Part shown: positions 21,083 to 39,133 of the stretch, piece by piece
Layout: each line of letters opens with the position of its first letter
How positions within the stretch are numbered: the stretch's first letter is position 1
Source: Roseococcus suduntuyensis
GTDB lineage: Bacteria > Pseudomonadota > Alphaproteobacteria > Acetobacterales > Acetobacteraceae
Reading direction: 5' to 3'
DNA: 64,000 nucleotides
Assembly: GCF_014196305.1 (NCBI RefSeq)
Contig: NZ_JACIDJ010000002.1
Coordinates: 1 to 64,000 of the forward strand
Position numbers and translations under genes: made by a program
The notes under the pieces: generated by a model
What the model was told of the DNA's origin: nothing
What the model saw: the letters and a program-made list of their open reading frames with translations, nothing else
The model's database searches: none

Positions 21083-22207
21083 TCAGCCGAAGCGGGCGGC
21101 GGCGGATGGCCCGATCCAGGCGGGTTCGCCGCCCAGGAAGACAGCCGCGAGCGAACCCTCCGGCGTGACGAGCGCCAGGTCGCCGCGCAGCCCGGGCGCA
21201 ATCCGTCCGCGGTCGTTCAAACCCAGCGCGCGGGCAGGATTCTCCGACACCAGCGCCCAGGCCTGGGCCAACGTCATCGCCCCCCGCGCGGCCATGCGGA
21301 AAGGGGCCGCCAGCAGCGCCGGCCAGTGATAGTCGGAGGCCAGCACGGTCACGAGGCCGCGCTCGGCCAGCGGTGCGGCGCTTGCCCAGCCCAGGTGGCT
21401 GCCGCCGCGCACCACGTTGGGCGCGCCCATCACCACGGGCTCGGCATGGGCGCGCGCGTCTTCGGCGACGGCCTCGGCCATGGGGAATTCGCAGATATCG
21501 GCGCCCAGGGCGCGGAAGCGCGCGCGCTGATCCAGCGTGGCGTCGTCATGGCTCAGCATGGGCACGCCCGCCGCGCGGGAGGCGGCGGCCATGCGGGCGC
21601 GGCTTTCGGGCACCTCGCCACGGCGGGACTTGGCGCGCAGCGCCAGCGCCTCGAACTCCGCCTCGCCCACGCCCGCGCGGCCGGCGTATTTGCCCAGCTC
21701 CTTGGGGTTGGAGAGCTTCTTCACGATGCTGGGCGTGTGGTCGTTGAAGCCCAGCACATGCACGCGGCCAGCGGCGATGGCGGCGAGCGCGTCGGGCTCG
21801 GCATCCAGGTTGTCGGCCTCGAAGCGGAGATGCACGCGCAGATCGCTGCCCGGCGGTGGCGCGGCCAGGGCGTCGAGGGTGGCCCGAAACGTCTCGACCG
21901 AGCGCAGCCCCGGCTCCCAGGACAAGGTTACGCCCAGGCAGGCCGTGGTGATGCCCGAGGCCAGGCATTGCGCGGCGGCATCGCGCAGCGCGAAATCCAT
22001 GGGGAAGGCCACGCCGGGGCGCGGCTGGATCGCGCGTTCATGCGCGTCACCATGGATGTCCACCAGCCCCGGCATGACGCAGAGGCCCGTGGCGTCGAAG
22101 CCCCGCCCCGCGCCACCCTCGGCGATGACGCCGCCCGCGAGATGCACTTCGCCGGGCACAAGCCGGCCCTCGCGCAGCACCTGGCCGCCCGTGATGCGCC
22201 AGCTCAT
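21083..22207 (-). CDS. PhnM-like alpha-D-ribose 1-methylphosphonate 5-triphosphate diphosphatase (second copy)
   Basis: I start at the ATG at 22207, overlapping phnF by 4 bases; the longer frame lies inside phnF. The 374-residue protein is an amidohydrolase with the metal motif VDIHGDAHE, GVTLSWEPGLRS, LSHDDATLDQ, GAPNVVRGGSHLGW and VLASDYHWPALLAAPF, as in PhnM. PhnM removes pyrophosphate from ribose-1-phosphonate 5-triphosphate to give the PhnJ substrate. A second phnM lies in the main operon (27513), and the two proteins are clearly diverged. Being coupled to phnF, this one is probably regulated together with the regulator. It may serve another ribosyl phosphonate or be redundant. Confidence 0.88.
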   Translation of the reverse strand: MSWRITGGQVLREGRLVPGEVHLAGGVIAEGGAGRGFDATGLCVMPGLVDIHGDAHERAIQPRPGVAFPMDFALRDAAAQCLASGITTACLGVTLSWEPGLRSVETFRATLDALAAPPPGSDLRVHLRFEADNLDAEPDALAAIAAGRVHVLGFNDHTPSIVKKLSNPKELGKYAGRAGVGEAEFEALALRAKSRRGEVPESRARMAAASRAAGVPMLSHDDATLDQRARFRALGADICEFPMAEAVAEDARAHAEPVVMGAPNVVRGGSHLGWASAAPLAERGLVTVLASDYHWPALLAAPFRMAARGAMTLAQAWALVSENPARALGLNDRGRIAPGLRGDLALVTPEGSLAAVFLGGEPAWIGPSAAARFG

Positions 22208-22941
22208 GGCTCGACCACCAGTTGCGCGCGGCCGGCGGCATAGCGGGTGATGGTGGCGTCCACGGGCTCGCCCTCGCTGTCGATGTTGAGCGCCTCGCTG
22301 ACCAGCAGCGGGCGGGCACGGGATTGCTGGAGCAGGGCGGCCTCCTCGGCGGTGGGCATGCGGGCGGTGATGCGGGTGGATTTGCGGCGGTAGTCGGGCA
22401 CGCCGCAGGCGGCCAGCGCGCGGGTGATGGAGGCATCCTCGCGCAGCAGGGCCGCCATCTGCGGGAAGCGCTGGGCGGGGAAGTGGTGCAGGCCGATGGC
22501 CAGCGGCCTTCCATCTGCCAGCGCCAGGCGCTCCACCTGCAACACGGTGCGGCCGCGGCGCAGGCCCAGCAGTTCCGCGATTCGCGCCTCGGGCGGCACC
22601 TCGGCCATGCGCAGCACACGGCCCGCGGGTTCGCGGTTCTGCGCGCGGATGATCTCGCTGAAGCGGGTGCGGGGGCCGAGCGGGTAGTCCAGCACATCCT
22701 CGGCCACGAAGCTGCCGCGCCCCTGCTCGATGCGGACGAGGCCCCTGCCCTCCAGTTCCTCCATGGCGCGGCGGATGGTGTGGCGGTTCACCGCGAAGCG
22801 GGTGGAGAGCTCGGCCTCGGTGGGCAGGCGCGCGCCAGGCCGGTGAGTGCCGTTGCGGATGGTGGCTTCGAGGCTGGCCGCGATCTGCCGCCACAGCGCG
22901 AGCCCGGCGCCGCGCTGAAGGGGATAGGGATCAGGTGTCAC
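22204..22941 (-). CDS. phnF: GntR-family (HutC subfamily) phosphonate regulator
   Basis: The 245-residue protein has an N-terminal winged helix (LWRQIAASLEATIRNGTHRP, PTEAELSTRFAVNRHTIRRA, MEELEGRGLVRIEQGRGSFV) and a C-terminal UTRA effector domain with LQVERLALADGRPLAIGLHHF. This is the PhnF pattern. PhnF proteins repress phosphonate or phosphate transport genes. It is divergent from phnGHIJKLM over about 79 bases, and its stop overlaps the second phnM-like gene. The intervening GTCTAGAC palindrome fits the HutC-type operator consensus, so it probably controls both directions. Confidence 0.9.
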   Translation of the reverse strand: MTPDPYPLQRGAGLALWRQIAASLEATIRNGTHRPGARLPTEAELSTRFAVNRHTIRRAMEELEGRGLVRIEQGRGSFVAEDVLDYPLGPRTRFSEIIRAQNREPAGRVLRMAEVPPEARIAELLGLRRGRTVLQVERLALADGRPLAIGLHHFPAQRFPQMAALLREDASITRALAACGVPDYRRKSTRITARMPTAEEAALLQQSRARPLLVSEALNIDSEGEPVDATITRYAAGRAQLVVEP

Positions 22942-23020: not shown

Positions 23021-23455
23021 ATGATGGACCGCCCCTCCTGGATGGCCGTTCTGGCCCGCGCCACCGAAGCCGAGATCGAGGCCACCCTCGCCGGCGCCCC
23101 GCCCCTGCCCCCGCATCGCCGCGTGCGCGGCCCGGAGGTCGGGCTGACCATGCTGCGCGGCCGCGCCGGGGGCGACGGCGCCGTCTTCAACCTGAGCGAG
23201 GCAACCGTCGCGCGCTGCACCGTGGCGCTGGAGGATGGCACGCTCGGCCATGGCTGGCGGCTGGGTCGCAGCAAGCGCGCCGCCGAATGGGCCGCCGTGC
23301 TGGACGCGCTGTTGCAGGGCGAGGCAAGGCGGGCCGAATGGCTGGAGCGGGTGGTGACGCCGCTCGCCGAGGCCCAGCGCGCCGCCACCGCCCGCGACGC
23401 CCGCCGCACCGCCGCGACCGAGGTGCGCTTCGCCACACTGGCGGCCATGCGATGA
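23021..23455 (+). CDS. phnG: C-P lyase core subunit PhnG
   Basis: The 144-residue protein contains WMAVLARATEAEIEATL and the family-typical MLRGRAGGDGAVFNLSEATV and GHGWRLGRSKRAAEWAAVLDA blocks. PhnG, H, I and J form the C-P lyase core; with PhnI it attaches ribose triphosphate to the phosphonate. Length is near the Escherichia coli protein (150). ATGATG at 23021 offers two starts; neither has a clear ribosome site. It is the first gene of an operon of eight genes, with 10 bases to phnH. Confidence 0.93.
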   Translation: MMDRPSWMAVLARATEAEIEATLAGAPPLPPHRRVRGPEVGLTMLRGRAGGDGAVFNLSEATVARCTVALEDGTLGHGWRLGRSKRAAEWAAVLDALLQGEARRAEWLERVVTPLAEAQRAATARDARRTAATEVRFATLAAMR

Positions 23456-23465
23456 GGAGCGAGCG

Positions 23466-24038
23466 ATGAAGACGGGCTTCACCGACCCCGTGCTGGACGC
23501 CCAGGCCGGGTTTCGCGCGCTCATGCAGGCCATGGCGCGGCCGGGCCGTGTCCAGCAGGTCATCCCGCCGCCCGAACTTCCCGCCGGGCTGGAGGCCGCT
23601 GCCGCCGCCACGATCCTGACGCTGGCCGATGCCGAGACGCCGCTCTGGACCGATGCGGGCGAGGAGGCCCGCGCCTGGATCACCTTCCACACCGGGGCAC
23701 CGCTGGTGGCGGAGCCGGCTTCCGCCATGCTGCTGCTGAACACCGGGGCCACCATGCCCGCACTGGCCACGCTGCACGCGGGCGAGGACGAGACGCCGCA
23801 GGACGGTGCCACGCTCATCCGCCAGGTCACGGGGCTGGCGGAGGGGTCGGGCTGGCGCCTGACGGGGCCGGGCATCGAGCGCGAGCATCACCTGGCCGTC
23901 ATGGGCGTGCCTGGTGATTTCCCCGCGCAGTGGCGCGCCAATGCGGCGCGCTTCCCGCGCGGGGTGGATGTGGTGCTCTGCGCGGGAGGACGGTTGGCCG
24001 CATTGCCGCGCAGCGTGGCGCTCAGGGAGGGTGGCTGA
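23466..24038 (+). CDS. phnH: C-P lyase core subunit PhnH
   Basis: The 190-residue protein opens with TGFTDPVLDAQAGFRALMQA and MARPGRVQ, the standard PhnH N-terminus, and has LTLADAETPLWTD and LTGPGIE later, where the family's GPGI block occurs. PhnH is a subunit of the C-P lyase core with a PLP-transferase-like fold and no known separate catalysis. Length matches E. coli (194). GAGGAGCGAGCG precedes the ATG. The stop shares one base with the phnI start (TGATG). Confidence 0.93.
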   Translation: MKTGFTDPVLDAQAGFRALMQAMARPGRVQQVIPPPELPAGLEAAAAATILTLADAETPLWTDAGEEARAWITFHTGAPLVAEPASAMLLLNTGATMPALATLHAGEDETPQDGATLIRQVTGLAEGSGWRLTGPGIEREHHLAVMGVPGDFPAQWRANAARFPRGVDVVLCAGGRLAALPRSVALREGG

Positions 24039-25135
24039 TGTATGTCGCGGTGAAGGGGGGCGATGCGGCCATCGCCGCCGCCCATGCCTGGCTGGCCGAA
24101 CAGCGGCGCGGCGACACCGCCCTGCCGGAGCTTTCGGCGGCGCAGGTGGCGGAACAACTGGGCCTGGCGGTGGACCGCGTGATGGCGGAAGGCAGCTGCC
24201 ATGACCGCGAACTGGCGGCACTGGCCATCAAGCAGGCGCGCGGCGACCTGATCGAGGCCGCCTTCCTGCTGCGTGCCTACCGCAACACCCTGACGCGCTT
24301 CCCGGCGGCCGAGCCGGTGGACACGGGGGCCATGCGCGTGCGCCGGCGCATCAGCGCCACCTACAAGGACATGCCGGGCGGTCAGGTTCTGGGCCCGACC
24401 TTCGACTACACCCACCGCCTGCTGGACTTCGCGCTGCTGGCGGAAGGGGAGGCGCCAACGCCCCCCGAAGAGTCCGAAGCCACGGGCGCGCCCATGCCGC
24501 GCGTCAGTGACATCCTGGCGCAGGAGGGACTGATGCGCCGCGAACCACCCGGCGACGATGCCCCGCCGCCCGACCTGACGCGCGACCCCCTGCCCTTCCC
24601 CGCCCCGCGCGCGCTGCGCCTGCAATCGCTCGCGCGCGGCGATGAGGGCTTCCTGCTGGGCCTCGGCTATTCGACCCAGCGCGGCTACGGCAACGCCCAT
24701 CCCTTCGTGGCCGAGCTGCGCATGGGCGAGGTGGAGGTGCTGATCACACCCCCTGAGCTTGGCTTTCCCATCAGCCTGGGCGAGATCACCGTCACCGAAT
24801 GCCAGATGGTGAACCAGTTCGCGGGCCAGGCCGACACGCCGCCGCAATTCACCCGCGGCTACGGACTCTCGCTCGGCCACAGCGAACGCAAGGCGATGGC
24901 CATGGCGCTGGTGGACCGCGCCCTGATGGCGCGCGACCTGGGCGAAGAGGTGACGGCCCCCGCCCAGGACCACGAATTCGTGCTGCTGCACGCGGACAAT
25001 GTGGAGGCGACGGGCTTCGTGGAACATCTCAAGCTGCCGCATCACGTGGATTTCCAGAGCGAGCTGGAGAAGCTGCGCAGCATCCGCGCGCGCTGGGAAG
25101 CGGCGCGGAATGGCGTGGCGGAGGCCGCGGAATGA
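24038..25135 (+). CDS. phnI: C-P lyase core subunit PhnI
   Basis: The 365-residue protein starts MYVAVKGGDAAIAAAHAWLA, as PhnI does, and includes YKDMPGGQVLGPTFDYTHRL, RGDEGFLLGLGYSTQRGYG, HPFVAELRMGEVEV and a C-terminal HHVDFQSELEKLRSIR block. PhnI is the nucleosidase-like subunit that displaces adenine from ATP with the phosphonate. The frame is open upstream within phnH, but the ATG at 24038 overlapping the phnH stop fits homologue length (354 in E. coli). A 4-base overlap links it to phnJ. Confidence 0.95.
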   Translation: MYVAVKGGDAAIAAAHAWLAEQRRGDTALPELSAAQVAEQLGLAVDRVMAEGSCHDRELAALAIKQARGDLIEAAFLLRAYRNTLTRFPAAEPVDTGAMRVRRRISATYKDMPGGQVLGPTFDYTHRLLDFALLAEGEAPTPPEESEATGAPMPRVSDILAQEGLMRREPPGDDAPPPDLTRDPLPFPAPRALRLQSLARGDEGFLLGLGYSTQRGYGNAHPFVAELRMGEVEVLITPPELGFPISLGEITVTECQMVNQFAGQADTPPQFTRGYGLSLGHSERKAMAMALVDRALMARDLGEEVTAPAQDHEFVLLHADNVEATGFVEHLKLPHHVDFQSELEKLRSIRARWEAARNGVAEAAE

Positions 25136-26010
25136 CGGCCAGCGCACACATGCAAGCCCCAGACACCGACCCCGGCTACAACTTCGCCTACCTGGACGAA
25201 GCCACGAAGCGCATGATCCGTCGTACGCTGCTGAAGGCCATCGCCATCCCGGGCCACCAGATCCCCTTCGGCGCACGCGAGATGCCGCTGCCGTATGGCT
25301 GGGGCACGGGCGGCATCCAGGTCACGGCCAGCATCCTCGGCCCCGACGACACGCTGAAGGTGATCGACCAGGGCGCGGATGACACGACCAATGCCGTCTC
25401 CATCCGCCGCTTCTTCCACCGCGTGGCCGGCGTGCGCACCACGACGCGCACGGCCGAGGCGACCATCATCCAGACCCGCCACCGCATCCCCGAACGGCCG
25501 CTGACCGAGGGGCAGGTCATGGTGTTCCAGGTACCGATGCCGGAGCCGCTGTTCAAGCTGGAACCGCGCCTCGCGGAAACCCGCCGCCTGCATGCCCTTG
25601 GCGACTATAGCCTGGCGCAGGTGAAGCTCTACGAGGACATCGCGCGGCAGGGCGAGGGCGGGTCCTCCTACAGCCATCCGGTCATGGTGAACCACCGCTA
25701 CCTCATGTCGCCCTCGCCCATTCCAGGCTTCGACAACCCGAAGCTGCACATGTCACCGGCGCTGATGCTGTTCGGCGCGGGGCGCGAGAAGAAGATCTAC
25801 GCGGTGCCGCCATACACCAGCGTGGTCAGCCTCGACTTCGACGACCACCCTTTCCGCCCCGTCCGCGCGCCGCACGCCTGCGCGGCCTGCGGCAGCACCA
25901 CCAGCTACCTGGACGAGATCGTCACCGATGACCGGGGCGGGCGCATGTTCGTCTGCTCCGACACCGACCATTGCGCCGAGAACCAGATGGCGCGGAAGGC
26001 CGCGGAATGA
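25132..26010 (+). CDS. phnJ: Radical-SAM C-P lyase PhnJ
   Basis: The 292-residue protein carries C250-x2-C253-x21-C275-x5-C281, exactly the spacing of E. coli PhnJ, where the first three cysteines hold the 4Fe-4S cluster and the fourth is the catalytic thiyl cysteine. Other blocks include YNFAYLDEATKRMIRR, IPGHQIPFGAREMPLPYGWG and QGADDTTNAVSIRRFF. It cleaves the C-P bond of 5-phosphoribosyl 1-phosphonate, releasing the alkane and the 1,2-cyclic phosphate. I start at the ATG overlapping the phnI stop (ATGA). The gene shows every residue needed for activity. Confidence 0.96.
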   Translation: MTASAHMQAPDTDPGYNFAYLDEATKRMIRRTLLKAIAIPGHQIPFGAREMPLPYGWGTGGIQVTASILGPDDTLKVIDQGADDTTNAVSIRRFFHRVAGVRTTTRTAEATIIQTRHRIPERPLTEGQVMVFQVPMPEPLFKLEPRLAETRRLHALGDYSLAQVKLYEDIARQGEGGSSYSHPVMVNHRYLMSPSPIPGFDNPKLHMSPALMLFGAGREKKIYAVPPYTSVVSLDFDDHPFRPVRAPHACAACGSTTSYLDEIVTDDRGGRMFVCSDTDHCAENQMARKAAE

Positions 26011-26777
26011 GCCCGATCTTGGAAGGCCAGGACCTCGCGCTGCGCTTCGGCGCGGTGCGGGCGCTGGATGATGTCTCCCTCTCCCTCTGGCCCGGCGAGG
26101 TGGTGGCCATCGTGGGCGAGAGCGGCTCGGGCAAGTCCACCCTGCTGCGCGTGCTGGCGGGGCTGATGGAACCCCAGGCCGGGCGCGTGCTCTACCACGA
26201 CGCCGAGGGCGCGGCGCAGGACGTCCACGCCCTGCGCGAGGCCGAGCGCCGCACGCTCATGCGCCGCGACTGGGGCTTCGTCCACCAGAACGCCCGAGAC
26301 GGGCTGCGCATGGGCGTCTCCGCCGGCGGCAACATCGGCGAACGGCTGATGGCGGCGGGCGGGCGCCACTACGGCAACATCCGCGCGGCCGCGGCCGAAT
26401 GGATGTCCCGCGTGGAAATGGACCCGGCGCGCATGGACGAGGCGCCGCGCAACTTCTCGGGCGGCATGCAGCAGCGCCTGCAGATCGCGCGCTGCCTCGT
26501 CACGCGCCCGCGCCTGGTCTTCATGGACGAACCCACGGGCGGGCTCGATGTCAGCGTGCAGGCGCGGCTGCTGGACCTGATCCGGTCACTGGTGGCGGAG
26601 CTTGGCCTCGCCGTGCTGTTCGTGACGCATGACATCGCCGCCGCCCGGCTGCTCGCGCACCGCATCGTGGTGATGCGCCACGGACGGATCGTGGAGGAAG
26701 GGCTTGCCGACCGCGTGCTGGACGACCCGCGGCACCCCTACACCCAGCTTCTCGTCGCCTCGGTGCTGGCGGCATGA
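26007..26777 (+). CDS. phnK: C-P lyase ABC-type ATPase PhnK
   Basis: The 256-residue ABC protein has Walker [10 protein letters not shown], the signature [17 protein letters not shown] and Walker [13 protein letters not shown]. Its [20 protein letters not shown] segment is specific for PhnK. It binds the C-P lyase core rather than a membrane permease. The start at 26007 overlaps the phnJ stop (ATGA), and phnL overlaps its own stop in the same way. No transmembrane partner is encoded nearby, in line with a non-transport function. Confidence 0.94.
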
Positions 26778-27475
26778 GCGCGCTGGCATTGGAGGTGGCG
26801 GCGCTGTCCAAACGCTTCACCCTGCACCTGCGCGGCGGCGTGAGCTTTCCCGTGCTGGAGGATGCGGCGCTGGTGCTGCACGCGGGCGAATGCGTGGCGC
26901 TGACCGGGCCCTCGGGCGCGGGGAAATCCACGCTGATGCGCTGCATCGCCGGCAATTACGGCGCCGATTCGGGCCATATCCGCCTGCGGCATCGCGACGC
27001 CATGGTGGACCTGGCCGCCGCCGATGCGCGGCTGATGCGGGAAATTCGCGCGGAAAGCCTCGGCCATGTCTCGCAATTCCTGCGCGTGATCCCGCGCGTG
27101 CCGGCGCTGGAGGTGGTGGCCGAGCCGCTGCGCGCCCGTGGCGTGCCGCGCGCCGAGGCGGAAGCGCAGGCCGCCGCCCTGCTGGCCCGGCTCAACCTGC
27201 CCGAACGCCTGCATGGTCTGCCGCCCGCCACCTTCTCGGGCGGCGAGCAGCAGCGGGTGAACATCGCCCGCGGCTTCGTGGCCCATTACCCGCTGATGCT
27301 ACTGGACGAACCCACGGCCAGCCTCGACCCCGCCAACCGCGAGGTGGTGATCGCACTGATCGCGGAGGCCAAGGCGCGGGGGGCGGCCATTCTGGGAATT
27401 TTCCATGACAGCGAGGTGCGCGCCCGCGTCGCGGATCGCCTGCATGAGGTGCGGCCGCTAGAAGACGCGGCATGA
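26774..27475 (+). CDS. phnL: C-P lyase ABC-type ATPase PhnL
   Basis: The 233-residue ABC protein has Walker [10 protein letters not shown], the signature [17 protein letters not shown] and Walker [13 protein letters not shown], with the PhnL-like [22 protein letters not shown] segment. PhnL is required with PhnG, H and I for attachment of the phosphonate to ribose triphosphate. Length is normal (226 in E. coli). The start overlaps the phnK stop by 4 bases; 37 bases separate it from phnM. Confidence 0.94.
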
Positions 27476-27512
27476 GCGCCCACATCCCCCACACACCCCA
27501 CAGCGAGGCCCG

Positions 27513-28676
27513 ATGAGCGCCATCCTTCACCGCGCCCCCGCCGCGCGCGAGACCATCCTGACCCATGCGCGCCTCATCCTGCCCGACCAGGAGCTGGACG
27601 GCACGCTGGTGCTGCGCGATGGCGTCATCGCCGATGTGCAGCCCGGCCGCGCCCATCACCCCTCGGCGGTGGATTGCGGCGGCGAGGTGCTGATGCCGGG
27701 CGTGGTGGATGTCCACACCGACAACCTGGAGCGCCAGGTGATGCCGCGCAGCAATGCGCGCTGGCCCTCGCGCTCGGCCTTCCTCAGCCACGACGCGCAA
27801 TGCGCAGTGGCGGGTGTCACCACAGTGCTGGACGCGCTCTGCCTGGGCGACCTCGGCTTCGACGTGGAGCGCGGCAAGACCTTCGAGGACGGCGTGCGCG
27901 ACATCACCGCGCTGACCGCCGAGGGCGTGCTGAAGGTGGAGCACCTGCTGCACCTTCGCTGCGAATTGCCGGCGGCCGACATGCCCACGCTGCTCGACCC
28001 CGTCGCGGAACACCCGCTGGTGGCCATGGTCAGCCTGATGGATCATTCGCCGGGTGTCGGCCAGTACCGGGACCTGGTGCGCTATCGCGCCATGCGGCTC
28101 AAGACCACGCGGATGACCGAGGCGCAGATCGAGACGCGCATCGCGGAACTGCTGGAACAGCGTGCCCGCCTGCGCGAACCGCAACGCCGCATGGTGCTGG
28201 ACCGCTTCGCCGGCCGCGACGTGCCGCTGGCCAGCCATGACGACGAGGTGCCCGCCGAAGTCGCGCGCAACGCGGCCGACGGCATCATGGTCAGCGAATT
28301 CCCGGTGACGATGGAGGCCGCGCGCGAAGCGGCGCGGCTTGGCGTCGCCGTCATCGCCGGCGCGCCCAACATCGTCCGCGGCGGCAGCCATTCCGGCAAT
28401 GTGGCGGCAATGGATCTGGTGCGCGCGGGTGCCGTGGACGTGCTGGCCAGCGACTATGTGCCGCCCGCGCTGATCGAGGCCGCCTTCGCCATGGCGGAGG
28501 TGACGGGCCTGCCCGCCGCCATCGCCACCATCACGGCCAACGCGGCCGACATGTGCCGCCTGCAGGATCGCGGGCGGCTGGCGATCGGGCAGCGTGCCGA
28601 CATCGTGCGCGTCCTGCCGCACCAGGGCATTCCCGTCATCCGCGCGGTGTGGCGCGGCGGGGAGCGGGTGGCGTGA
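27513..28676 (+). CDS. phnM: Alpha-D-ribose 1-methylphosphonate 5-triphosphate diphosphatase PhnM
   Basis: The 387-residue amidohydrolase has VLMPGVVDVHTDNLERQVMP with the HxD metal motif, CAVAGVTTVLDALCLGDLGF, SLMDHSPGVGQYRD, LASHDDEVPAEV, GAPNIVRGGSHSGN and VLASDYVPPAL. It hydrolyses the triphosphate to yield 5-phosphoribosyl 1-phosphonate and pyrophosphate. It is closer to E. coli PhnM than the copy beside phnF. Length is normal. It ends in a GTGA that can serve as start for the next gene, so coupling is likely. Confidence 0.95.
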   Translation: MSAILHRAPAARETILTHARLILPDQELDGTLVLRDGVIADVQPGRAHHPSAVDCGGEVLMPGVVDVHTDNLERQVMPRSNARWPSRSAFLSHDAQCAVAGVTTVLDALCLGDLGFDVERGKTFEDGVRDITALTAEGVLKVEHLLHLRCELPAADMPTLLDPVAEHPLVAMVSLMDHSPGVGQYRDLVRYRAMRLKTTRMTEAQIETRIAELLEQRARLREPQRRMVLDRFAGRDVPLASHDDEVPAEVARNAADGIMVSEFPVTMEAAREAARLGVAVIAGAPNIVRGGSHSGNVAAMDLVRAGAVDVLASDYVPPALIEAAFAMAEVTGLPAAIATITANAADMCRLQDRGRLAIGQRADIVRVLPHQGIPVIRAVWRGGERVA

Positions 28677-28678
28677 CG

Positions 28679-29356
28679 ATGCGCGCCGCCCTCTACTGGG
28701 CGCCCGAGGTGGATGATCCGCTGCACGCCGCCGGCAGCGCCTGGCTCGGCCGTGACGCCGAGACGGGCGCCACCCTGACGCAGCCCCCCGTGCCCGACCT
28801 GCCCGCCCTCACCGCCGATGCGCGGGGCTATGGCCTGCACGCGACGCTGAAGCCGCCCTTCCGCATCGCAACTTCCTACGCCGCGCTTCGCGAGGATGCG
28901 GCCGCCTTCGCGGCGCGCACGGCGCCCTTCGACCTGCCGCCACTGGCGGTGATGGACCTGAAGGGGTTCCTCGCGCTGCGCGAAACCGCCCCCTGCCCGG
29001 CGCTGCGCGCGCTGACGGATGGCGCGGTGGCCGCGCTGGACGCCCATCGCGCGCCCCCCACCGAGCAGGAGCTGGCCCGGCGCCGCAAGGCCAACCTCTC
29101 GCCCCGGCAGGAGGCGATGCTCGCGCGCTGGGGCTATCCCTATCTCGAAGAAGATTGGCAGTTCCACGTCACGCTGACGCGCCGCCTGACGCCCGAGGAA
29201 GCGGCATGGGTGCGCCCGGCGGCCGAGGCGCATTTCGCCTCAGTGTTCGAAATGGGGACCGGCCGGGCGCGGCGGGTGCGCGAGGTCTGCCTGTTCACCC
29301 AGGCCGGCCCCGGCGCCCCCTTCCTGATCGCCGAGCGCCTGGCGCTCGGCGGGTAG
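28679..29356 (+). CDS. DUF1045 phosphonate-operon protein with 2H phosphoesterase motifs
   Basis: From the ATG at 28679 the product has 225 residues; a GTG at 28673 overlapping the phnM stop is an alternative start. Two H-x-T motifs, H54-A-T56 in YGLHATLKPPF and H163-V-T165 in WQFHVTLTRRL, are about 109 residues apart, the signature of the 2H phosphoesterase superfamily. DUF1045 members are usually found in C-P lyase operons and their role is unknown. The operon lacks phnP, whose product opens the ribose 1,2-cyclic phosphate made by PhnJ. Some 2H enzymes hydrolyse the like 1'',2''-cyclic phosphate of ADP-ribose, so this protein is a reasonable PhnP substitute. That is inference. Confidence 0.85.
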   Translation: MRAALYWAPEVDDPLHAAGSAWLGRDAETGATLTQPPVPDLPALTADARGYGLHATLKPPFRIATSYAALREDAAAFAARTAPFDLPPLAVMDLKGFLALRETAPCPALRALTDGAVAALDAHRAPPTEQELARRRKANLSPRQEAMLARWGYPYLEEDWQFHVTLTRRLTPEEAAWVRPAAEAHFASVFEMGTGRARRVREVCLFTQAGPGAPFLIAERLALGG

Positions 29357-32068: not shown

Positions 32069-32167
32069 AGGGTCCACCGCTCGCTTGTGCTGCCGCCCGG
32101 CCCTGGCCTAACCTCATCACCGGGAGTTCGACGCCACGCACCGGCCACGCACCGGAGGTGGACGAGC

Positions 32168-33775
32168 ATGGAATTCAATCGGAGACAGGGCCTCGCCGCC
32201 GCGGGTGGTCTGGCCATGGGCGCGACCTTGCCCGCGGGCGAGGCTTCCGCCCAGACGCGCGCCGAGACGCTGCGCTATGTGACGGGCAACACCGTCAACT
32301 CGCTCGATCCGAGCGTGCCCGGTTCCACGCGCGAGAGCTTCGGCCTCAGCATGAACGTCTATGACCGCCTGGCCGCCTTCGGCCGCAAGCGGCTGGGCGA
32401 CAACTGGGTCTTCGACCACAACGACATCCGCGGCGAGCTGGCCGAGCGCATTGACCGCAGCCCCGATGGCCGCACCTTCACCTTCCACATCCGCCAGGGC
32501 GCCACCTGGCATGACGGCACGCCCGTCACCGCCGAGGATGTGAAGTGGTCGCTGGACCGCGCCGTCTCCGCACGGTCGCTGGCGCCGCCGCAGATGTCCA
32601 CGGGCTCCATCACCAGCCCCGACCAGTTCCGCATCGCCGGGCCGCGCGTGGTGGAGATGATGGTGGAGCGGCCGGACCGCCTCGCGCTGTCCAACATGTG
32701 CGTGCCCTACGCCATCATGATCAACAGCACGCTGGCCAAGCGCCACGCCACCACGGACGACCCCTGGGCGCTGAACTGGCTGAAGGACAATTCGGCCGCC
32801 GGCGGCGCCTATATCGTGGAGCAGCACCGGCCGGGCACCCAGACCATCCTGCGCCGCAACGACAACTGGCGGGGCGGCGAGCAGCCGGGCTTCCGCCGCG
32901 TCATCGTGCAGACCGTGCCCGAGGTGGCGACGCGCGCGAACCTGGTGGAGCGGGGCGACGCCGACCTCTCCATTGATCTGCAGCCGAGCGACGTGGCGGC
33001 GCTGGCGCAGCGCGGGCGGGTGAAGGTGGTCTCGGTGCCGCAGACCAACGGCTTCACGCACATCTCCATGAACAACACCATGGCGCCCTTCGACGATGTG
33101 AAGGTGCGCCAGGCCATCGCCGCCGCCCTGCCCTACCAGGACATGTTCCAGGCCGCGCTGTTCAGCCGCGGCCGCGCGCTGTTCGGCGCGGACTGGACCA
33201 CCACGCCGCCGAATTCCGACTTCCCGCAGCCCATGCCGCTGCACAGCAACCTGGAACGCGCGCGCGAATTGCTGCGCGAATCGGGGCATCCAAACGGCTT
33301 CTCGACCACCTTCACCATCGGCACGGGCGTCTCGGCCTGGGCGGAACCGATGGCGGCGCTGATCAAGGAATCGCTCGCGCGGATCAACATCAACGTGGAC
33401 ATCCGCAAGCTGCCGGACGCCCAGTTCAACACGGGCCAGGCCGAGCGCACCCTGCCGTTCTACACCGAGGGCGGTACCGCCTGGCTACCGGCGCCGGACT
33501 ATTTCTTCCGCCTCTACTTCACCCGGCCGCAGCGCTGGAATTTCGCCAGCTTCAACAACGAGGAAATCAACGCCCTCACGCGCGAGGCGCAGTTCGAGAC
33601 AGACGCCGCGAAATACGACGCCGCCTGCAAGCGGATGATCGAAATCCTCGCCGCCGAGGTGCCGCTCATCCTCGCCTGGCAGCCGCTGCACGAGGCGGTG
33701 ATGGCGCGCAACATCGAGGGCTACACCTACTGGTTCTACCGGCAGGCGGATTTCCGCGACCTCAAGCGTGTCTGA
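32168..33775 (+). CDS. ABC transporter substrate-binding protein, dipeptide/oligopeptide family (system 1)
   Basis: The ATG at 32168 gives 535 residues with a twin-arginine-like signal (NRRQGLAAAGGLAMGATLPA, cleavage near ASAQ). SBP_bac_5 blocks follow: GRTFTFHIRQGATWHDGTPV, TAEDVKWSLDR, and YIVEQHRPGTQTILRRNDNW. It captures its ligand in the periplasm for the two permeases and fused ATPase encoded next. Family 5 binding proteins carry peptides, nickel, sugars or opines; the ligand here cannot be read. The stop overlaps the next gene by 8 bases. Confidence 0.9.
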   Translation: MEFNRRQGLAAAGGLAMGATLPAGEASAQTRAETLRYVTGNTVNSLDPSVPGSTRESFGLSMNVYDRLAAFGRKRLGDNWVFDHNDIRGELAERIDRSPDGRTFTFHIRQGATWHDGTPVTAEDVKWSLDRAVSARSLAPPQMSTGSITSPDQFRIAGPRVVEMMVERPDRLALSNMCVPYAIMINSTLAKRHATTDDPWALNWLKDNSAAGGAYIVEQHRPGTQTILRRNDNWRGGEQPGFRRVIVQTVPEVATRANLVERGDADLSIDLQPSDVAALAQRGRVKVVSVPQTNGFTHISMNNTMAPFDDVKVRQAIAAALPYQDMFQAALFSRGRALFGADWTTTPPNSDFPQPMPLHSNLERARELLRESGHPNGFSTTFTIGTGVSAWAEPMAALIKESLARININVDIRKLPDAQFNTGQAERTLPFYTEGGTAWLPAPDYFFRLYFTRPQRWNFASFNNEEINALTREAQFETDAAKYDAACKRMIEILAAEVPLILAWQPLHEAVMARNIEGYTYWFYRQADFRDLKRV

Positions 33776-34829
33776 CGCCGCGCAGCCCGCGCCGCGCGGG
33801 GGCAAGTGGGGCGCGGTGGGGCGGCGGGTGGGCATGCGCCTGCTCTCCGCCGTGCCGGCGCTGTTCGGGGTGCTGGTCTTCACCTTCCTGCTGATGCGCG
33901 TCCTGCCCGGCGACCCGGCGGTGTTCTTCGCCGCAGGCGCCAATACGGGCCAGGCCGAGATCGACATGGTGCGCGAGCAGATGGGCCTGGACCGGCCGAT
34001 GCATGAGCAGTTGCTGCGCTACCTCTGGGACATCACCCGGGGCAATCTCGGCAACTCCATGACCACGGGGCAGCCCGTGCGGACGGACCTGGTCGAGCGG
34101 CTGCCGGCCTCGCTGGAGCTCACCTTCTCGGCGCTGCTGCTGGCGTTGAGCCTCGCACTCCCGCTCGGCATCGTGGCGGCGCTGCGGCCGGGCACGCTGG
34201 TGGACCATGTCGTGCGCTTCCTCTGCACGCTGGGCGTCTGCGTGCCGACCTTCGTCTCGGGCCTGCTGCTGATCTATGTCTTCTACTACCTGCTGGCCTG
34301 GGCGCCGGACCCGACCGGGCGGCTCGACATCTTCGCGGCCACGCCGCCCGAGATCACGGGCTTTCTCCTCATTGACTTCGCGCTGGTGCGGGATTGGGAA
34401 GGGTGGCGGGCCGCGGCGGGGCAGTTGATCCTGCCGGCCTCCACCATGGCGCTCTTCGTCCTCGCGCCGCTGGCGCGCATGACGCGGGCGTCCATGCTGG
34501 CGGTGCTGGGCAGTGACTTCGTGCGGACGGCAAAGTCCCTCGGCCTGTCGCATTGGCGCATCATCGTGGTCTATGCGCTGCGGAATGCGCTGCTGCCGGT
34601 GCTGACCATCTCGGGCATCGTCTTCTCGACCATGCTGGGCGCCAATGTGCTGGTGGAGAAGGTCTTCTCCTGGCCCGGCGTCGCCTCCTACGCGCTCGAT
34701 GCGCTGCTGGCCTCGGACTACGCGCCGGTGCAGGGCTTCGTGCTGCTGATGGCGACCATCTTCGTCATGGTGAATCTGTTGATCGACATTCTCTACGGCG
34801 TGGCCGACCCGCGGGCCTCGGTGGCATGA
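33768..34829 (+). CDS. ABC transporter permease, DppB type (system 1)
   Basis: The 353-residue integral membrane protein starts at GTG inside the end of the preceding gene. VPALFGVLVFTFLLMRVLPG is the first helix, and the EAA loop appears as FVRTAKSLGLSHWRIIVVYA followed by LRNALLPVLTISG. About six hydrophobic segments are visible. It forms the inner-membrane channel with the DppC-type partner. It is slightly longer than DppB (339). The four genes are joined by overlaps of a few bases. Confidence 0.92.
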   Translation: MSDAAQPAPRGGKWGAVGRRVGMRLLSAVPALFGVLVFTFLLMRVLPGDPAVFFAAGANTGQAEIDMVREQMGLDRPMHEQLLRYLWDITRGNLGNSMTTGQPVRTDLVERLPASLELTFSALLLALSLALPLGIVAALRPGTLVDHVVRFLCTLGVCVPTFVSGLLLIYVFYYLLAWAPDPTGRLDIFAATPPEITGFLLIDFALVRDWEGWRAAAGQLILPASTMALFVLAPLARMTRASMLAVLGSDFVRTAKSLGLSHWRIIVVYALRNALLPVLTISGIVFSTMLGANVLVEKVFSWPGVASYALDALLASDYAPVQGFVLLMATIFVMVNLLIDILYGVADPRASVA

Positions 34830-35671
34830 GCGCCACCTTGCGGCATGTGGGCTGGGTGCTGCGTGGCAACCCGGTGACGGCGGCGGCGGCGGCGGGGGCC
34901 ACGCTGCTGCTCTTCGTGGCCTTCTTCGCCCCCTGGCTGGCGCCCTACGATCCCATCGCCTCCAACGTGCCCAATGCCTTGCAGCCGCCCTCGGCCGCGC
35001 ATTGGGCGGGCACCGACCAGCTGGGCCGGGACGTGTTCAGCCGCATCCTCTATGGCACGCGGGTGGACCTCGCCATCGCCTTCTCCGCCGTCAGCCTCTC
35101 CTTCGCCATCGGCGCGGTGGTGGGAAGTTTCTGCGGCTATGTCGGCGGCGCGCTGGACCGCGTGGTGGGGCGGCTGGTGGATGTGCTGATGGCCTTCCCG
35201 CTCTTCGTGCTGGCCATGGCGCTGGTGGCCGCACTCGGCAACTCCATCGAGAACATCATCCTCGCCACCGCCTTCATTAACCTGCCCTTCTACATCCGCT
35301 TCGCCCGCGCCGAGGTGAATGTCCGCCGCAACCTGGGCTGGGTGGAGGCCGCGCGCGCCTCGGGCGACAGCGACCTTTCGGTGGTGCTGCGCTTCCTGCT
35401 GCCCAATGTGCTGCCGGCCATGGCGGTGCAGATCTCGCTGAACCTGGGCTGGGCGATTTTGAACGCGGCGGGGCTTTCCTTCATCGGGCTCGGCATCACG
35501 CCGCCCACGCCGGAATGGGGCATCATGGTGGCCGAAGGCGCACGCTTCATCACCTCCGGCCATTGGTGGCTGGTGGCTTTTCCAGGGCTGGCGCTGATGC
35601 TCTCGGTGCTGTGCTTCAACCTGCTGGGCGACGGGCTGCGCGACATCCTCGACCCCCGGATGCGGACATGA
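34826..35671 (+). CDS. ABC transporter permease, DppC type (system 1)
   Basis: From the ATG overlapping the DppB-type stop (ATGA) the product has 281 residues. It has the N-terminal helix LLLFVAFFAPWLAPYDPI, the HWAGTDQLGRDVFSRILYGT motif of DppC permeases and the EAA-loop segment GWVEAARASGDSDLSVVLRF. FLGLGITPPTPEWG-like sequence (FIGLGITPPTPEWG) near the C-terminus is also typical. It pairs with the upstream permease; its stop overlaps the ATPase gene. Confidence 0.92.
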   Translation: MSATLRHVGWVLRGNPVTAAAAAGATLLLFVAFFAPWLAPYDPIASNVPNALQPPSAAHWAGTDQLGRDVFSRILYGTRVDLAIAFSAVSLSFAIGAVVGSFCGYVGGALDRVVGRLVDVLMAFPLFVLAMALVAALGNSIENIILATAFINLPFYIRFARAEVNVRRNLGWVEAARASGDSDLSVVLRFLLPNVLPAMAVQISLNLGWAILNAAGLSFIGLGITPPTPEWGIMVAEGARFITSGHWWLVAFPGLALMLSVLCFNLLGDGLRDILDPRMRT

Positions 35672-37314
35672 CCGGCCCGTTGCTGGAGGTCGAGGACCTT
35701 CACATCCGCTTCTCCACACGACGCGGGCCGGTGGAGGCGGTGCGCGGCATTTCCCTGCGGCTGGCCCCCGGCGAAACGCTGGGCGTGGTGGGCGAAAGCG
35801 GCTCGGGCAAGTCGGTCACGGCCTATGCGGTGACGCACCTGCTGGACCGCGCCGGGAGCATCACCCAGGGGCGCATACGCTTCCGCGGCCGCGACATCAC
35901 CCGCGCCGGGCGGCACGAACTGCGCGAGCTGCGCGGCAGTGCGATGTCCATGATCTTTCAGAACCCGCGCGGGGCGCTGAACCCCATCCGCACCGTGGGG
36001 CGCCAGATCGCGGACGTGCTGCGCGCCCACAACGCCATCACGGCGCGCGAGGCGCGTGAGCGTGCGCTCGACCTGCTGCGCGCCGTGCTGATCCGTGACC
36101 CGAAGGGCAACCTCGACGCCTATCCGCACGAGCTTTCGGGCGGCATGTGCCAGCGCGTGATGATCGCCATGGCCATCGCGTGTGAGCCGGCGTTGATGAT
36201 CGCGGACGAGCCCACCACGGGCCTCGACGTCACCACGCAAAAGACGGTGATGGACCTGCTGGCCCGCATCACGGCCGAGCGCGGCATGGCGATGATCCTC
36301 ATCACGCATGACCTGGGCCTCGCCGCGCAATATTGCCGGCGCGTCGCGGTGATGGAACGTGGCCTGGTGGTGGAGGAAGGTGCGGCCGCGCGGCTCTTCC
36401 AGGCGCCCGACCACCCCTACACGCGCCGGCTGATCGCGGCCTCGCCCACCCGCACCTCCACCGTGGCGGACCTGGTCGAGGGCGATGCCCCGCCACCGCC
36501 CCGACGCGCGCCCCGCGCCCCCGGAACGCCACTGCTGCTGGAAGTGCAGGGCCTGTTCAAGCAATATGCCCGCACCCGCGCCGTGGATGATGTCTCCTTC
36601 ACGCTCGAACCCGGGGAGAGCCTGGGGCTCGTGGGCGAAAGCGGCTCGGGCAAGAGCACCATCTCGCGCCTGATCTGCCGGCTGATTGATGCGACGGCGG
36701 GCGAGATCATTTTCGACGGCCAATCCATCGCGGCGACACCCGCGCGGCACTTCCACAAGGCGCCGCAGCGGCGCGACATCCAGATCGTCTTCCAGGACCC
36801 GACCGACAGCCTCAACCCGCGCTTCAGCGCCTTCGACAGCATCGCCCACCCGCTGCGCCGGCTGGACCGGCTGCCGTCCGAGGCGGCGCTGCGCGCCCGT
36901 GTGGAGGAGTGCGCGGAACGCTGTGGCCTGCCGCGCGAGTTGCTGGACCGCTTCCCGCACCAGCTCTCGGGCGGGCAGAAGGCGCGGGTGGGCATCGCGC
37001 GCGCCATCGCCACGCGCCCGCGCCTCTTGGTGCTGGATGAACCGACGGCCGCGCTGGACGTCTCGGTGCAGGCCGTGATCCTGAAGCTGCTGGACGATCT
37101 GCGGCGCGAGGACGGGCTGGGCTATCTCTTCGTCAGCCACGACCTCAACGTGGTGCGGATGATGTGCGAGCGCACCATCGTCCTGCGCCAGGGCCGCATC
37201 GTGGAACAGGGGCCGAGTGCCGCGCTCTTCGCGGCACCCCAGGCCGCCTATACGCGGGAATTGCTGGCCGCCATCCCGCACTTCGACCCGGAGGCGATGC
37301 GGGAGCCGGCCTAG
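35668..37314 (+). CDS. ABC transporter fused ATPase, DppD-DppF type (system 1)
   Basis: The 548-residue protein contains two complete ABC domains. Domain 1 has Walker [11 protein letters not shown] (near residue 40), signature [16 protein letters not shown] and Walker B LMIADEPTTGLD; domain 2 has [10 protein letters not shown] (near 325), LSGGQKARVGIARAI and LLVLDEPTAALD. Separate dppD and dppF genes are the usual arrangement (systems 2 and 3 here), so this is a gene fusion or a GsiA/YliA-type layout. It powers uptake through the two permeases upstream. Its TAG stop lies inside a 6-bp hairpin (AGCCGG-CCTAGA-CCGGCT, 37304-37321) shared with the convergent gene's stop. Confidence 0.93.
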   Translation: MTGPLLEVEDLHIRFSTRRGPVEAVRGISLRLAPGETLGVVGESGSGKSVTAYAVTHLLDRAGSITQGRIRFRGRDITRAGRHELRELRGSAMSMIFQNPRGALNPIRTVGRQIADVLRAHNAITAREARERALDLLRAVLIRDPKGNLDAYPHELSGGMCQRVMIAMAIACEPALMIADEPTTGLDVTTQKTVMDLLARITAERGMAMILITHDLGLAAQYCRRVAVMERGLVVEEGAAARLFQAPDHPYTRRLIAASPTRTSTVADLVEGDAPPPPRRAPRAPGTPLLLEVQGLFKQYARTRAVDDVSFTLEPGESLGLVGESGSGKSTISRLICRLIDATAGEIIFDGQSIAATPARHFHKAPQRRDIQIVFQDPTDSLNPRFSAFDSIAHPLRRLDRLPSEAALRARVEECAERCGLPRELLDRFPHQLSGGQKARVGIARAIATRPRLLVLDEPTAALDVSVQAVILKLLDDLRREDGLGYLFVSHDLNVVRMMCERTIVLRQGRIVEQGPSAALFAAPQAAYTRELLAAIPHFDPEAMREPA

Positions 37315-37321
37315 ACCGGCT
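37304..37321. terminator. Short hairpin covering both stop codons of convergent transporter operons
   Basis: AGCCGG and CCGGCT pair around a six-base loop. The loop carries the TAG of the plus-strand ATPase gene, and the right arm touches the minus-strand stop. With only 6 bp and no T-run it is a weak candidate for a bidirectional terminator. Confidence 0.3.
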
Positions 37322-38186
37322 ACTTGCGATCCGACCGCGGGTCCAGCGCGTCGCGCAGCCCGTCGCCCGCCAGGTTGAAGGCCAGCACCACCAGGAAGAT
37401 GGCCAGCCCCGGGAAAATGGCGAGCCAAGGCGCCTGCGTCAGGAAGCGCTGCGCCGAGTTCAGCATGGAGCCCCAGGACGGATCGGGCGGCTGCATGCCG
37501 AGGCCGAGGAAGGAGAGCGAGGCCTCGGCGATGATGGCCTCCGCGATGGAGAGCGTCGCCTGCACCATCAAGGGTGGCACGATGTTGGGCGCCACATGCA
37601 CGATGGCCGTGCGCCAGGGCGGGTTGCCGAGCGCACGCGCCGCCTCCACCCAGTCGGTGGACATGGCCTCCAGCGCCATGCCGCGCGCCAGCCGCACGAA
37701 GACCGGCGAGGCCGAGATGGCGATGGCGAGCATCGCGTTCTCCAGCGCCGGTCCCAGGAAGGCGGCCAGGGCGATGGCGAGGATCAGGAAGGGCACCGAG
37801 AGCATGGCGTCCGCGATGCGCGAGATTACCGCATCCACCCAGCCGCCCGCCATGCCCGCCAGCAGCCCGATGGGCACGCCGATGATGACGGCGCCCAGCA
37901 CCGCCAGCACGCCCGCCATCAGCGAGGCGCGCGCCCCCCATATGACGCGCGAGAGCACGTCGCGCCCATTCTCATCCGTGCCGAACCAATGCGCGGCGGA
38001 GGGTGCGCGGCGGATGGCGGTCCAGGAGGTCTGGTTCGGGTCATAGGGGGCCAGCAGCGGGGCGAAGGCCGCCACCAGCACGAAGAGCACCACCACGACG
38101 AGGCCCGCCATGGCGAGGCGGTGCCGCAGGAAGCGGCGGATGGCGCGTTGGGTGGGGCTTTCGCCCGCCTGGATCACGGCACTCAT
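37320..38186 (-). CDS. ABC transporter permease, DppC type (system 2)
   Basis: I start at the ATG at 38186, overlapping the upstream permease stop by 4 bases; the longer frame is inside that gene. The 288-residue protein has VVVVLFVLVAAFAPLLAPYD as first helix, then HWFGTDENGRDVLSRVIWGA, and TDWVEAARALGNPPWRTAIV as the EAA loop, with ASLSFLGLGMQPPDPSWGSM near the end. It is the last gene of the system 2 operon and ends 5 bases from the convergent system 1 ATPase. Confidence 0.92.
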   Translation of the reverse strand: MSAVIQAGESPTQRAIRRFLRHRLAMAGLVVVVLFVLVAAFAPLLAPYDPNQTSWTAIRRAPSAAHWFGTDENGRDVLSRVIWGARASLMAGVLAVLGAVIIGVPIGLLAGMAGGWVDAVISRIADAMLSVPFLILAIALAAFLGPALENAMLAIAISASPVFVRLARGMALEAMSTDWVEAARALGNPPWRTAIVHVAPNIVPPLMVQATLSIAEAIIAEASLSFLGLGMQPPDPSWGSMLNSAQRFLTQAPWLAIFPGLAIFLVVLAFNLAGDGLRDALDPRSDRK

Positions 38187-39130
38187 GCGCGGCGCAGCCT
38201 CGGGTTGATGGCCATGTAGAGGATGTCCGCTAGCAGGCTCAGCAGGACGAAGATGAGGGCGGTGGCCAGCACCACCCCCTGCACCACCGGGTAGTCGCGG
38301 TTGAACACCGCATCCACCACCAGCTTGCCGAAGCCCGGGATGGAGAAGATCTGCTCGGTCAGGACCGCGCCCGAGAGCAGGCGGCCGAACTCGATGGTGC
38401 CAAGCGTCACCACCGGAATCAGCGCGTTGCGGAGCGCATGCTTCCACACCACCACGCGCTCGCGCAGGCCCTTGGCGCGGGCGGTGCGGACATAGTCCTG
38501 GCTCATCGCACCCAGCATGGCGGCACGGGTGTGGCGCATCAGCACGCCGGCCACACCGGTGCCGAGGACGAAGGCCGGCATGATGGTGGTGGCGAGCGAC
38601 TGCCAGGGGTCCTCGGTCAGCGGCACATAGCCCGAGGGCGGCAGCCAACCCAACTGCACGCTGAACAGCAGGATCATCAGGATGCCCAACCAGAAATTGG
38701 GCATGGAAATGCCGAAGAGCGCCGCGCCATTGGCCGCCCAGTCGGCCGGCTGGTCCTTCCGCACGGCGGAGAGGATGCCCAGCGGCACGCCGATCAGCAC
38801 CGCGATGATGAAGGCCATCGCGCCGAGCTGGAAGGTGACGGGCAGCTTCTCCAGGATGAGCTCCGACACCGGCACGCGGATGCGCCAGGAGAAGCCGAAA
38901 TCCCCCTGGATCACGCGCGTGATCCAGGCCCAGTACTGCTCGGGCAGGGAGCGGTCGAGGCGCAGCTCGGCGCGGATCTGCGCCAGCACCTGCTCGTCGC
39001 CCCGCTCCTCACCGGCGAGGATGAGCGCGGGGTCGCCGGGCATCAGCTGCTGCAGCCCGAAGATCATCACGGAGAGGATGAGCAGGGTGGGGATGATCTG
39101 CCCCACCCGCCGCAGCAGCCAGATGCCCAT
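38183..39130 (-). CDS. ABC transporter permease, DppB type (system 2)
   Basis: The 315-residue protein begins MGIWLLRRVGQIIPTLLILS and continues with GDPALILAGEERGD and LRLDRSLPEQYWAWITRVIQ, the standard DppB opening. The EAA-like segment is DYVRTARAKGLRERVVVWKH followed by LRNALIPVVTLG. Length is normal. It starts 4 bases after the binding-protein gene stop and overlaps the DppC-type gene. The ligand of system 2 is unknown. Confidence 0.93.
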   Translation of the reverse strand: MGIWLLRRVGQIIPTLLILSVMIFGLQQLMPGDPALILAGEERGDEQVLAQIRAELRLDRSLPEQYWAWITRVIQGDFGFSWRIRVPVSELILEKLPVTFQLGAMAFIIAVLIGVPLGILSAVRKDQPADWAANGAALFGISMPNFWLGILMILLFSVQLGWLPPSGYVPLTEDPWQSLATTIMPAFVLGTGVAGVLMRHTRAAMLGAMSQDYVRTARAKGLRERVVVWKHALRNALIPVVTLGTIEFGRLLSGAVLTEQIFSIPGFGKLVVDAVFNRDYPVVQGVVLATALIFVLLSLLADILYMAINPRLRRA

Positions 39131-39133
39131 GGG

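Follow-up and report, generated by a model that had tools for sequence, protein, structure and literature searches.

In marine and soil environments, carbon-phosphorus (C-P) lyase frees the phosphate of phosphonates, and from methylphosphonate it also frees methane. Escherichia coli phnP strains pile up ribosyl 1,2-cyclic phosphate and make no usable phosphorus from phosphonate (PMC3463581). The window analyzed here, a 64,000-nt stretch of Roseococcus suduntuyensis DNA (positions 1 to 64,000 of NZ_JACIDJ010000002.1, assembly GCF_014196305.1), holds a C-P lyase operon in which phnM is followed by a gene for a protein of the DUF1045 family. We put the probability that this protein is the phosphoribosyl cyclic phosphodiesterase of the pathway at roughly 86%, based on the family to which it belongs, its predicted fold, the conservation of its tetrad, its place in the operon, the absence of PhnP and the association with PhnJ.

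The proposal that such a protein substitutes for PhnP has been in print since at least 2013, when a fosmid study put forward a 2H protein for this role (PMC3840354). In that study, an E. coli strain with phnHIJKLMNOP deleted (BW16787) regains growth on methylphosphonate when given the Rhodobacteraceae fosmid B3_TF_MPn_2, which encodes the 2H protein and lacks phnP. The fosmid protein would be a DUF1045 protein, an assignment made from gene order and clade and not from a comparison of its sequence. In other work, DUF1045 adjoining phnM is called a putative phosphoribosyl cyclic phosphodiesterase, with credit to Hove-Jensen, Zechel and Jochimsen (PMC8235418), and 54 operons are described with PhnP in 27 and rcsF in the 16 without phnP, with credit to Podzelinska 2009 (PMC10574752). 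The rcsF product is presented as a phosphoesterase analogous to phnP (PMC6981132), Roseovarius has the order phnM, rcsF, phnNL (PMC5649143), and a Phaeobacter phosphorus-stress response lists a DUF1045 protein with PhnI, PhnJ, PhnL and PhnM (PMC10132767). We see no essential difference between the window gene and the "RcsF" or DUF1045 2H protein of C-P lyase clusters (PMC3840354, PMC8235418, PMC10574752), which is the same kind of gene in the same place and with the same proposed role. A direct assay of a DUF1045/2H protein was not found among the titles, abstract openings and passages searched in the open-access literature, subscription papers being mostly outside our reach. The work of Hove-Jensen, Zechel and Jochimsen reportedly dates from 2014.

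A sequence-only reading of the window had also proposed this protein as a replacement for PhnP. The comparative evidence (mutual exclusion and the 2H fold), together with the agreeing published genetics (PMC3463581, PMC3840354), supports that proposal as far as such evidence reaches. We add a whole-genome exclusion test, a fold match, a phnN homolog in the window's own genome and several side lines; the exclusion over genomes and the match to an enzyme for a ribose 1,2-cyclic phosphate make the published proposal directly testable.

In the proposed pathway, PhnJ releases 5-phospho-alpha-D-ribosyl 1,2-cyclic phosphate, and DUF1045, with H54/T56 and H163/T165 as predicted catalytic residues, would open the ring by metal-free hydrolysis, giving ribose 1,5-bisphosphate. 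PhnN, whose gene lies about 230 kb away in this genome and beside DUF1045 in many relatives, would then generate phosphoribosyl pyrophosphate. We infer the substrate, the bond cut and the metal independence of DUF1045. PhnP (TIGR03307), which we take to have a metallo-beta-lactamase fold, would share the reaction and the pathway position with DUF1045, whereas DUF1045 has no lactamase match. Eggerthella PhnPP, presumably a PHP-type cyclic phosphodiesterase, would be a further alternative to PhnP for this reaction, with a fold that differs from that of DUF1045.

Family, motifs and predicted fold of the DUF1045 protein

The window protein belongs to DUF1045 (PF06299; E 3.3e-47, 160.9 bits against a cut-off of 24.3, residues 56-215), which Pfam still lists as a protein of unknown function. 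In the same Pfam scan it matches PF13563 (2_5_RNA_ligase2) at 29.6 bits, just above the cut-off of 27. The translation contains the two H-x-T motifs noted in the sequence-only reading, HATL at H54 (H-A-T, 54-56) and HVTL at H163 (H-V-T, 163-165). Because two H-x-T motifs arise in 3.7% of 20,000 shuffles of this protein, the motif count by itself is weak evidence; the real evidence is motif conservation. Both histidines are invariant in 60 of 60 aligned DUF1045 sequences from the window's phylum, the window included, as are R2, G24, P60, R124 and G152. Across 76 DUF1045 sequences, the motif pair is HxT/HxT in 72, HxT/HxS in one and HxV/HxP in three, such that 73 of 76 keep the two conserved H-x-T/S motifs that define the 2H superfamily. 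These 76 sequences make up the DUF1045 tree, drawn from 80 extracted rows with four fragments from one genome (G194) left out, and 60 of them form the alignment (A1) used for structure prediction.

A bilobal 2H-phosphoesterase fold is confidently predicted for DUF1045, and the model's top Foldseek match is an Arabidopsis enzyme that acts on ADP-ribose 1'',2''-cyclic phosphate (Appr>p), in line with the likeness to 2H phosphoesterases that had been proposed from the motifs. The predicted fold is shared over nearly the whole model with this cyclic phosphodiesterase (1jh6) and with E. coli LigT, but identity in the structural alignments is 10-18%, and DUF1045 has 225 aa compared to 166-185 aa. 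Both enzymes, we assume, carry two H-x-T motifs of their own. A sequence search for solved structures of DUF1045 gave no convincing match (best E values 0.25 and 0.11). Nothing pointed to a PhnP-like metallo-beta-lactamase fold: the Pfam scan of DUF1045 returned no lactamase family, and the best structural matches were 2H enzymes. A search for DUF1045 on phages gave no match at 1e-5.

Distribution of DUF1045 and PhnP

The sequence-only reading had suggested checking whether DUF1045 and phnP exclude each other. We drew 398 genomes evenly from the window's phylum, of which 83 have PhnJ above the cut-off (G040 additionally has it below the cut-off). DUF1045, PhnP and PhnN were searched for in 80 of these; the others are the window's own genome (G000), already known, and G123 and G171, which carry DUF1045 and lie outside the PhnP search. 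DUF1045 is present in 59 of the 80 and true PhnP in 19, none has both, and two (G374 and G377, of the same family) have neither. The frequent joint presence that would have spoken against the proposed replacement was therefore not seen. The PhnP genomes are sharply set off, scoring 296-433 bits with the next-highest score at 85.9. In most PhnJ genomes of this one-phylum sample, ring opening would fall to DUF1045 instead of the PhnP of E. coli. DUF1045 also tracks PhnJ, being above the cut-off in 62 of 83 PhnJ genomes compared to 9 of the 315 others, two of those nine being weak, and PhnN is above the cut-off in 77 of the 80 (in G246, below it).

G374 and G377 (loci L096 and L097) have E. coli-like phn operons with phnN, and phnP and DUF1045 were seen neither beside them nor, above cut-offs, in the genomes. 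Among the open reading frames (ORFs) next to these operons, read by eye and without a family search, nothing suitable as a PhnP replacement was noticed.

Within the window, neither PhnP nor a true PhnN was matched; a weak PhnN-profile match at C2:26094 falls inside phnK. The phnP elsewhere in the genome that could have overturned the idea was not found either, since a whole-genome profile search returned no true PhnP (best match 66.9 bits, cut-off 272). The single PhnP-profile match, at G000:C3:106286-107038, was rejected as phnP. It fits NF038231 (209.6 bits) and NF002553 (185.3) far better than PhnP (69), all three below their own cut-offs, it is flanked by tatD and mazG, with a metG-like gene (recognized by eye) upstream, and it lacks two of the three cysteines in the GCxCxxC stretch of co-aligned PhnP sequences. 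On these grounds we regard it as a housekeeping metallo-beta-lactamase.

The statement that phnP and phnN are missing thus held for the operon and, as regards phnN, failed for the genome. A phnN homolog of 178 aa with a GPSGAGKD P-loop lies at about C2:256066-256602 (140.9 bits at G000:C2:256096-256590, cut-off 156), about 230 kb from the operon and upstream of an rpsB-like gene recognized by eye. We therefore discarded the view that this genome lacks phnN, and the pathway of PhnJ, DUF1045 and PhnN can be complete.

A set of named genomes was obtained by a PhnJ scan of genome contigs with the best 80 loci kept, which lean towards relatives of the query. The locus flanks show DUF1045 in 54, phnP in five (Kosakonia twice, Pseudomonas caspiana, Shimwellia and Advenella) and neither in 21. 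DUF1045 is found elsewhere in the genome for 19 of these 21, including 10 of 10 with long flanks, and PhnP above the cut-off for none; at the 11 loci with less than 15 kb, "elsewhere" may mean the same operon on the next contig. Whole-genome searches of the five PhnP genomes found no DUF1045. In total, 73 of 80 have DUF1045 near or elsewhere, five have PhnP, and the two with neither are both metagenome-assembled genomes (MAGs). The PhnP check covered the fetched flanks where DUF1045 lies close to phnJ (54 genomes) and the whole genome in the other 26.

We placed these labels on a PhnJ tree with 148 rows (DUF1045 in 120, PhnP in 24, none in four), which covers genomes whose PhnJ was fetched, contains several long rows of unsure placement and omits G200, whose fetched stretch has no PhnJ ORF. 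The DUF1045 labels and the PhnP labels each require only four changes; shuffled labels require 26.0 and 22.7, respectively. Operons of the PhnP type fall into one main clade, made up of 22 rows and two "none" rows, and a distant long-branch pair, G048 and G366. Family f43 has one genome of each type, G246 with DUF1045 and G366 with PhnP. Advenella has a PhnP operon, whereas the remaining Burkholderiales of the named set, an order that we presume from the organism names, have DUF1045, except for one Limnohabitans MAG with neither. The f43 and Advenella cases go beyond shared host descent.

Competing explanations and DUF1045 outside C-P lyase

Several observations weigh against DUF1045 as the PhnP substitute. 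The window protein matches TIGR03223 ("putative phosphonate metabolism protein", Phn_opern_protn) over residues 1-224 at 225.2 bits, short of the cut-off of 248.95, and thus appears to be a close relative of the TIGR03223 members that falls under the curated cut-off. G016 and G032, which have DUF1045 and PhnJ, gave no PhnN match at 1e-15; G374 and G377 imply a third solution or a loss; and the fosmid rescue does not single out the 2H gene (PMC3840354). Because the labels change so rarely on the PhnJ tree, genomes cannot be counted as independent trials, and the independent swaps are few. Finally, the family is not confined to C-P lyase, since seven PhnJ-negative genomes carry a strong DUF1045 with the tetrad intact and a rhizobial DUF1045 paralog sits in a urate catabolism cluster.

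Six of the seven PhnJ-negative genomes have a PhnM homolog (three above the cut-off) and one has PhnN. Three of these PhnM proteins are of the NF011987 type, as is the window's second phnM, and lie away from DUF1045 (G083, G183 and G208); the other three are of the main type. DUF1045 adjoins phnM in two genomes, as phnM-DUF1045-phnN in G322 (L104, 8259-11001) and phnM-DUF1045 in G095 (L099, 9798-11626). A speculative and rather doubtful idea is that DUF1045 and PhnM are an older, C-P lyase-independent pair for ribose-cyclic-phosphate salvage that was later recruited into C-P lyase operons, with a rhizobial branch diverted to urate catabolism.

The paralog is an additional DUF1045, of a single kind, carried by four rhizobial genomes (G107, G253, G043 and G265; L105-L108) and forming one clade with support 100/99 in the DUF1045 tree. 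Urate-type neighbors are common to all four; in G253 they are a flavin adenine dinucleotide (FAD) oxidoreductase, a polysaccharide-deacetylase-family protein (probably PuuE-like), OHCU decarboxylase, ureidoglycolate lyase and HIUase. Both threonines are gone in three of the four, where the motifs read H-x-V and H-x-P instead of H-x-T.

Under a rival account, the protein acts on another cyclic phosphate or 2'-phosphate, such as ADP-ribose 1'',2''-cyclic phosphate or some pathway by-product, and is merely co-regulated with C-P lyase. The intact-tetrad copies of the PhnJ-negative genomes, six with a PhnM homolog, and the urate-cluster clade favor this account, but it leaves unexplained the lack of true PhnP in all 59 DUF1045 genomes of the sample and the growth supported by a phnP-less fosmid (PMC3840354), and we consider it unlikely. 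We think it very unlikely that the housekeeping lactamase opens the cyclic phosphate while DUF1045 has another role in the pathway. That gene is the sole PhnP-profile match in the genome, and such matches below the cut-off, one or more per genome, occur in 57 of the 59 DUF1045 genomes; yet its family fits and neighbors speak otherwise, and the PhnP profile matches 11 of 14 control genomes, Caulobacter included, though PhnJ matches E. coli alone.

The exclusion could also reflect lineage history alone, with phnP and DUF1045 marking two operon types of no functional equivalence. Four changes per label agree with that; however, PhnP occurs in two separate parts of the tree, one being the long-branch pair, family f43 has both types, Advenella departs from the other named Burkholderiales, and every named genome with long DUF1045-free flanks retains DUF1045 elsewhere. 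We regard lineage history alone as the least probable account, and favor DUF1045 as the enzyme that opens the ring.

The operon and DUF1045 neighborhoods

The operon and its divergent neighbors are as follows:

21083..22207, - strand: second phnM, behind phnF (NF011987 387 bits; TIGR02318 300 bits, below the cut-off of 390)
22204..22941, - strand: phnF, GntR-type regulator, divergent from phnG (TIGR02325 250 bits)
23021..23455, + strand: phnG (TIGR03293 137 bits)
23466..24038, + strand: phnH (TIGR03292 173 bits)
24038..25135, + strand: phnI (PF05861 534 bits)
25132..26010, + strand: phnJ, C-P lyase subunit with the cyclic phosphate as product (PF06007 461 bits)
25971..26777, + strand: phnK (TIGR02323 348 bits)
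26774..27475, + strand: phnL (TIGR02324 309 bits)
27513..28676, + strand: phnM, first copy (NF011984 482 bits, TIGR02318 412 bits)
28679..29356, + strand: DUF1045 gene, 2H-phosphoesterase-like, 225 aa (H54-x-T56, H163-x-T165)

The order is phnG-H-I-J-K-L-M-DUF1045, with phnGHIJKLM at 23021-28676 on the + strand. Two bases lie between the phnM stop and the DUF1045 ATG in the window sequence, a spacing that suggests a single transcription unit for the two genes. Behind DUF1045, the Pfam scan places a convergent EF-hand gene. The window PhnJ is nearest to those of Rhodovarius and other Acetobacteraceae/Roseomonadaceae, at 82% at best.

In 47 of 62 genomes, DUF1045 and PhnJ are no more than 15 kb apart. 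Among the 15 distant copies, six are beside phnM and phnN (G051, G055, G123, G171, G274 and G331) and four near phnM or phnCDE (G091, G167, G280 and G289); the fetched stretches of the other five (G299, G319, G321, G325 and G392) show no phn neighbors, those of G319 and G321 being short on one side. Outside the urate set, no neighbor shared by the displaced copies appeared among the largest neighbor clusters and ten neighbors scanned. On named plasmids, the DUF1045 gene accompanies phnM and phnN in Sinorhizobium meliloti and Paracoccus pantotrophus, is flanked by phnL and phnN in S. chiapasense and adjoins phnN in Mesorhizobium japonicum; the predicted DUF1045 product would be the substrate of PhnN. 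Several genomes of family f12, which we take to be of Rhodobacteraceae type, have an order like phnM, rcsF, phnNL.

The arrangement of a second divergent phnM of NF011987 type behind phnF is repeated in Acetobacteraceae and further genomes, and a second phnM is likewise remarked on in PMC3840354. Past the operon, 32087-40819 of the window holds parts of a family-5 (oligopeptide-type) ATP-binding cassette (ABC) transporter on both strands; oligopeptide-type transporters near phn operons also occur in Mesorhizobium pMLa and S. chiapasense. One genome (G194, contig C103, L180) has two extra phn loci, each with fragmented DUF1045 matches. A phn operon with DUF1045 also lies on NZ_VCCH02000045.1 (L260), which is titled Mycobacterium; its PhnJ groups with those of two genomes from the window's class (G311 and G285), and the label is probably wrong.
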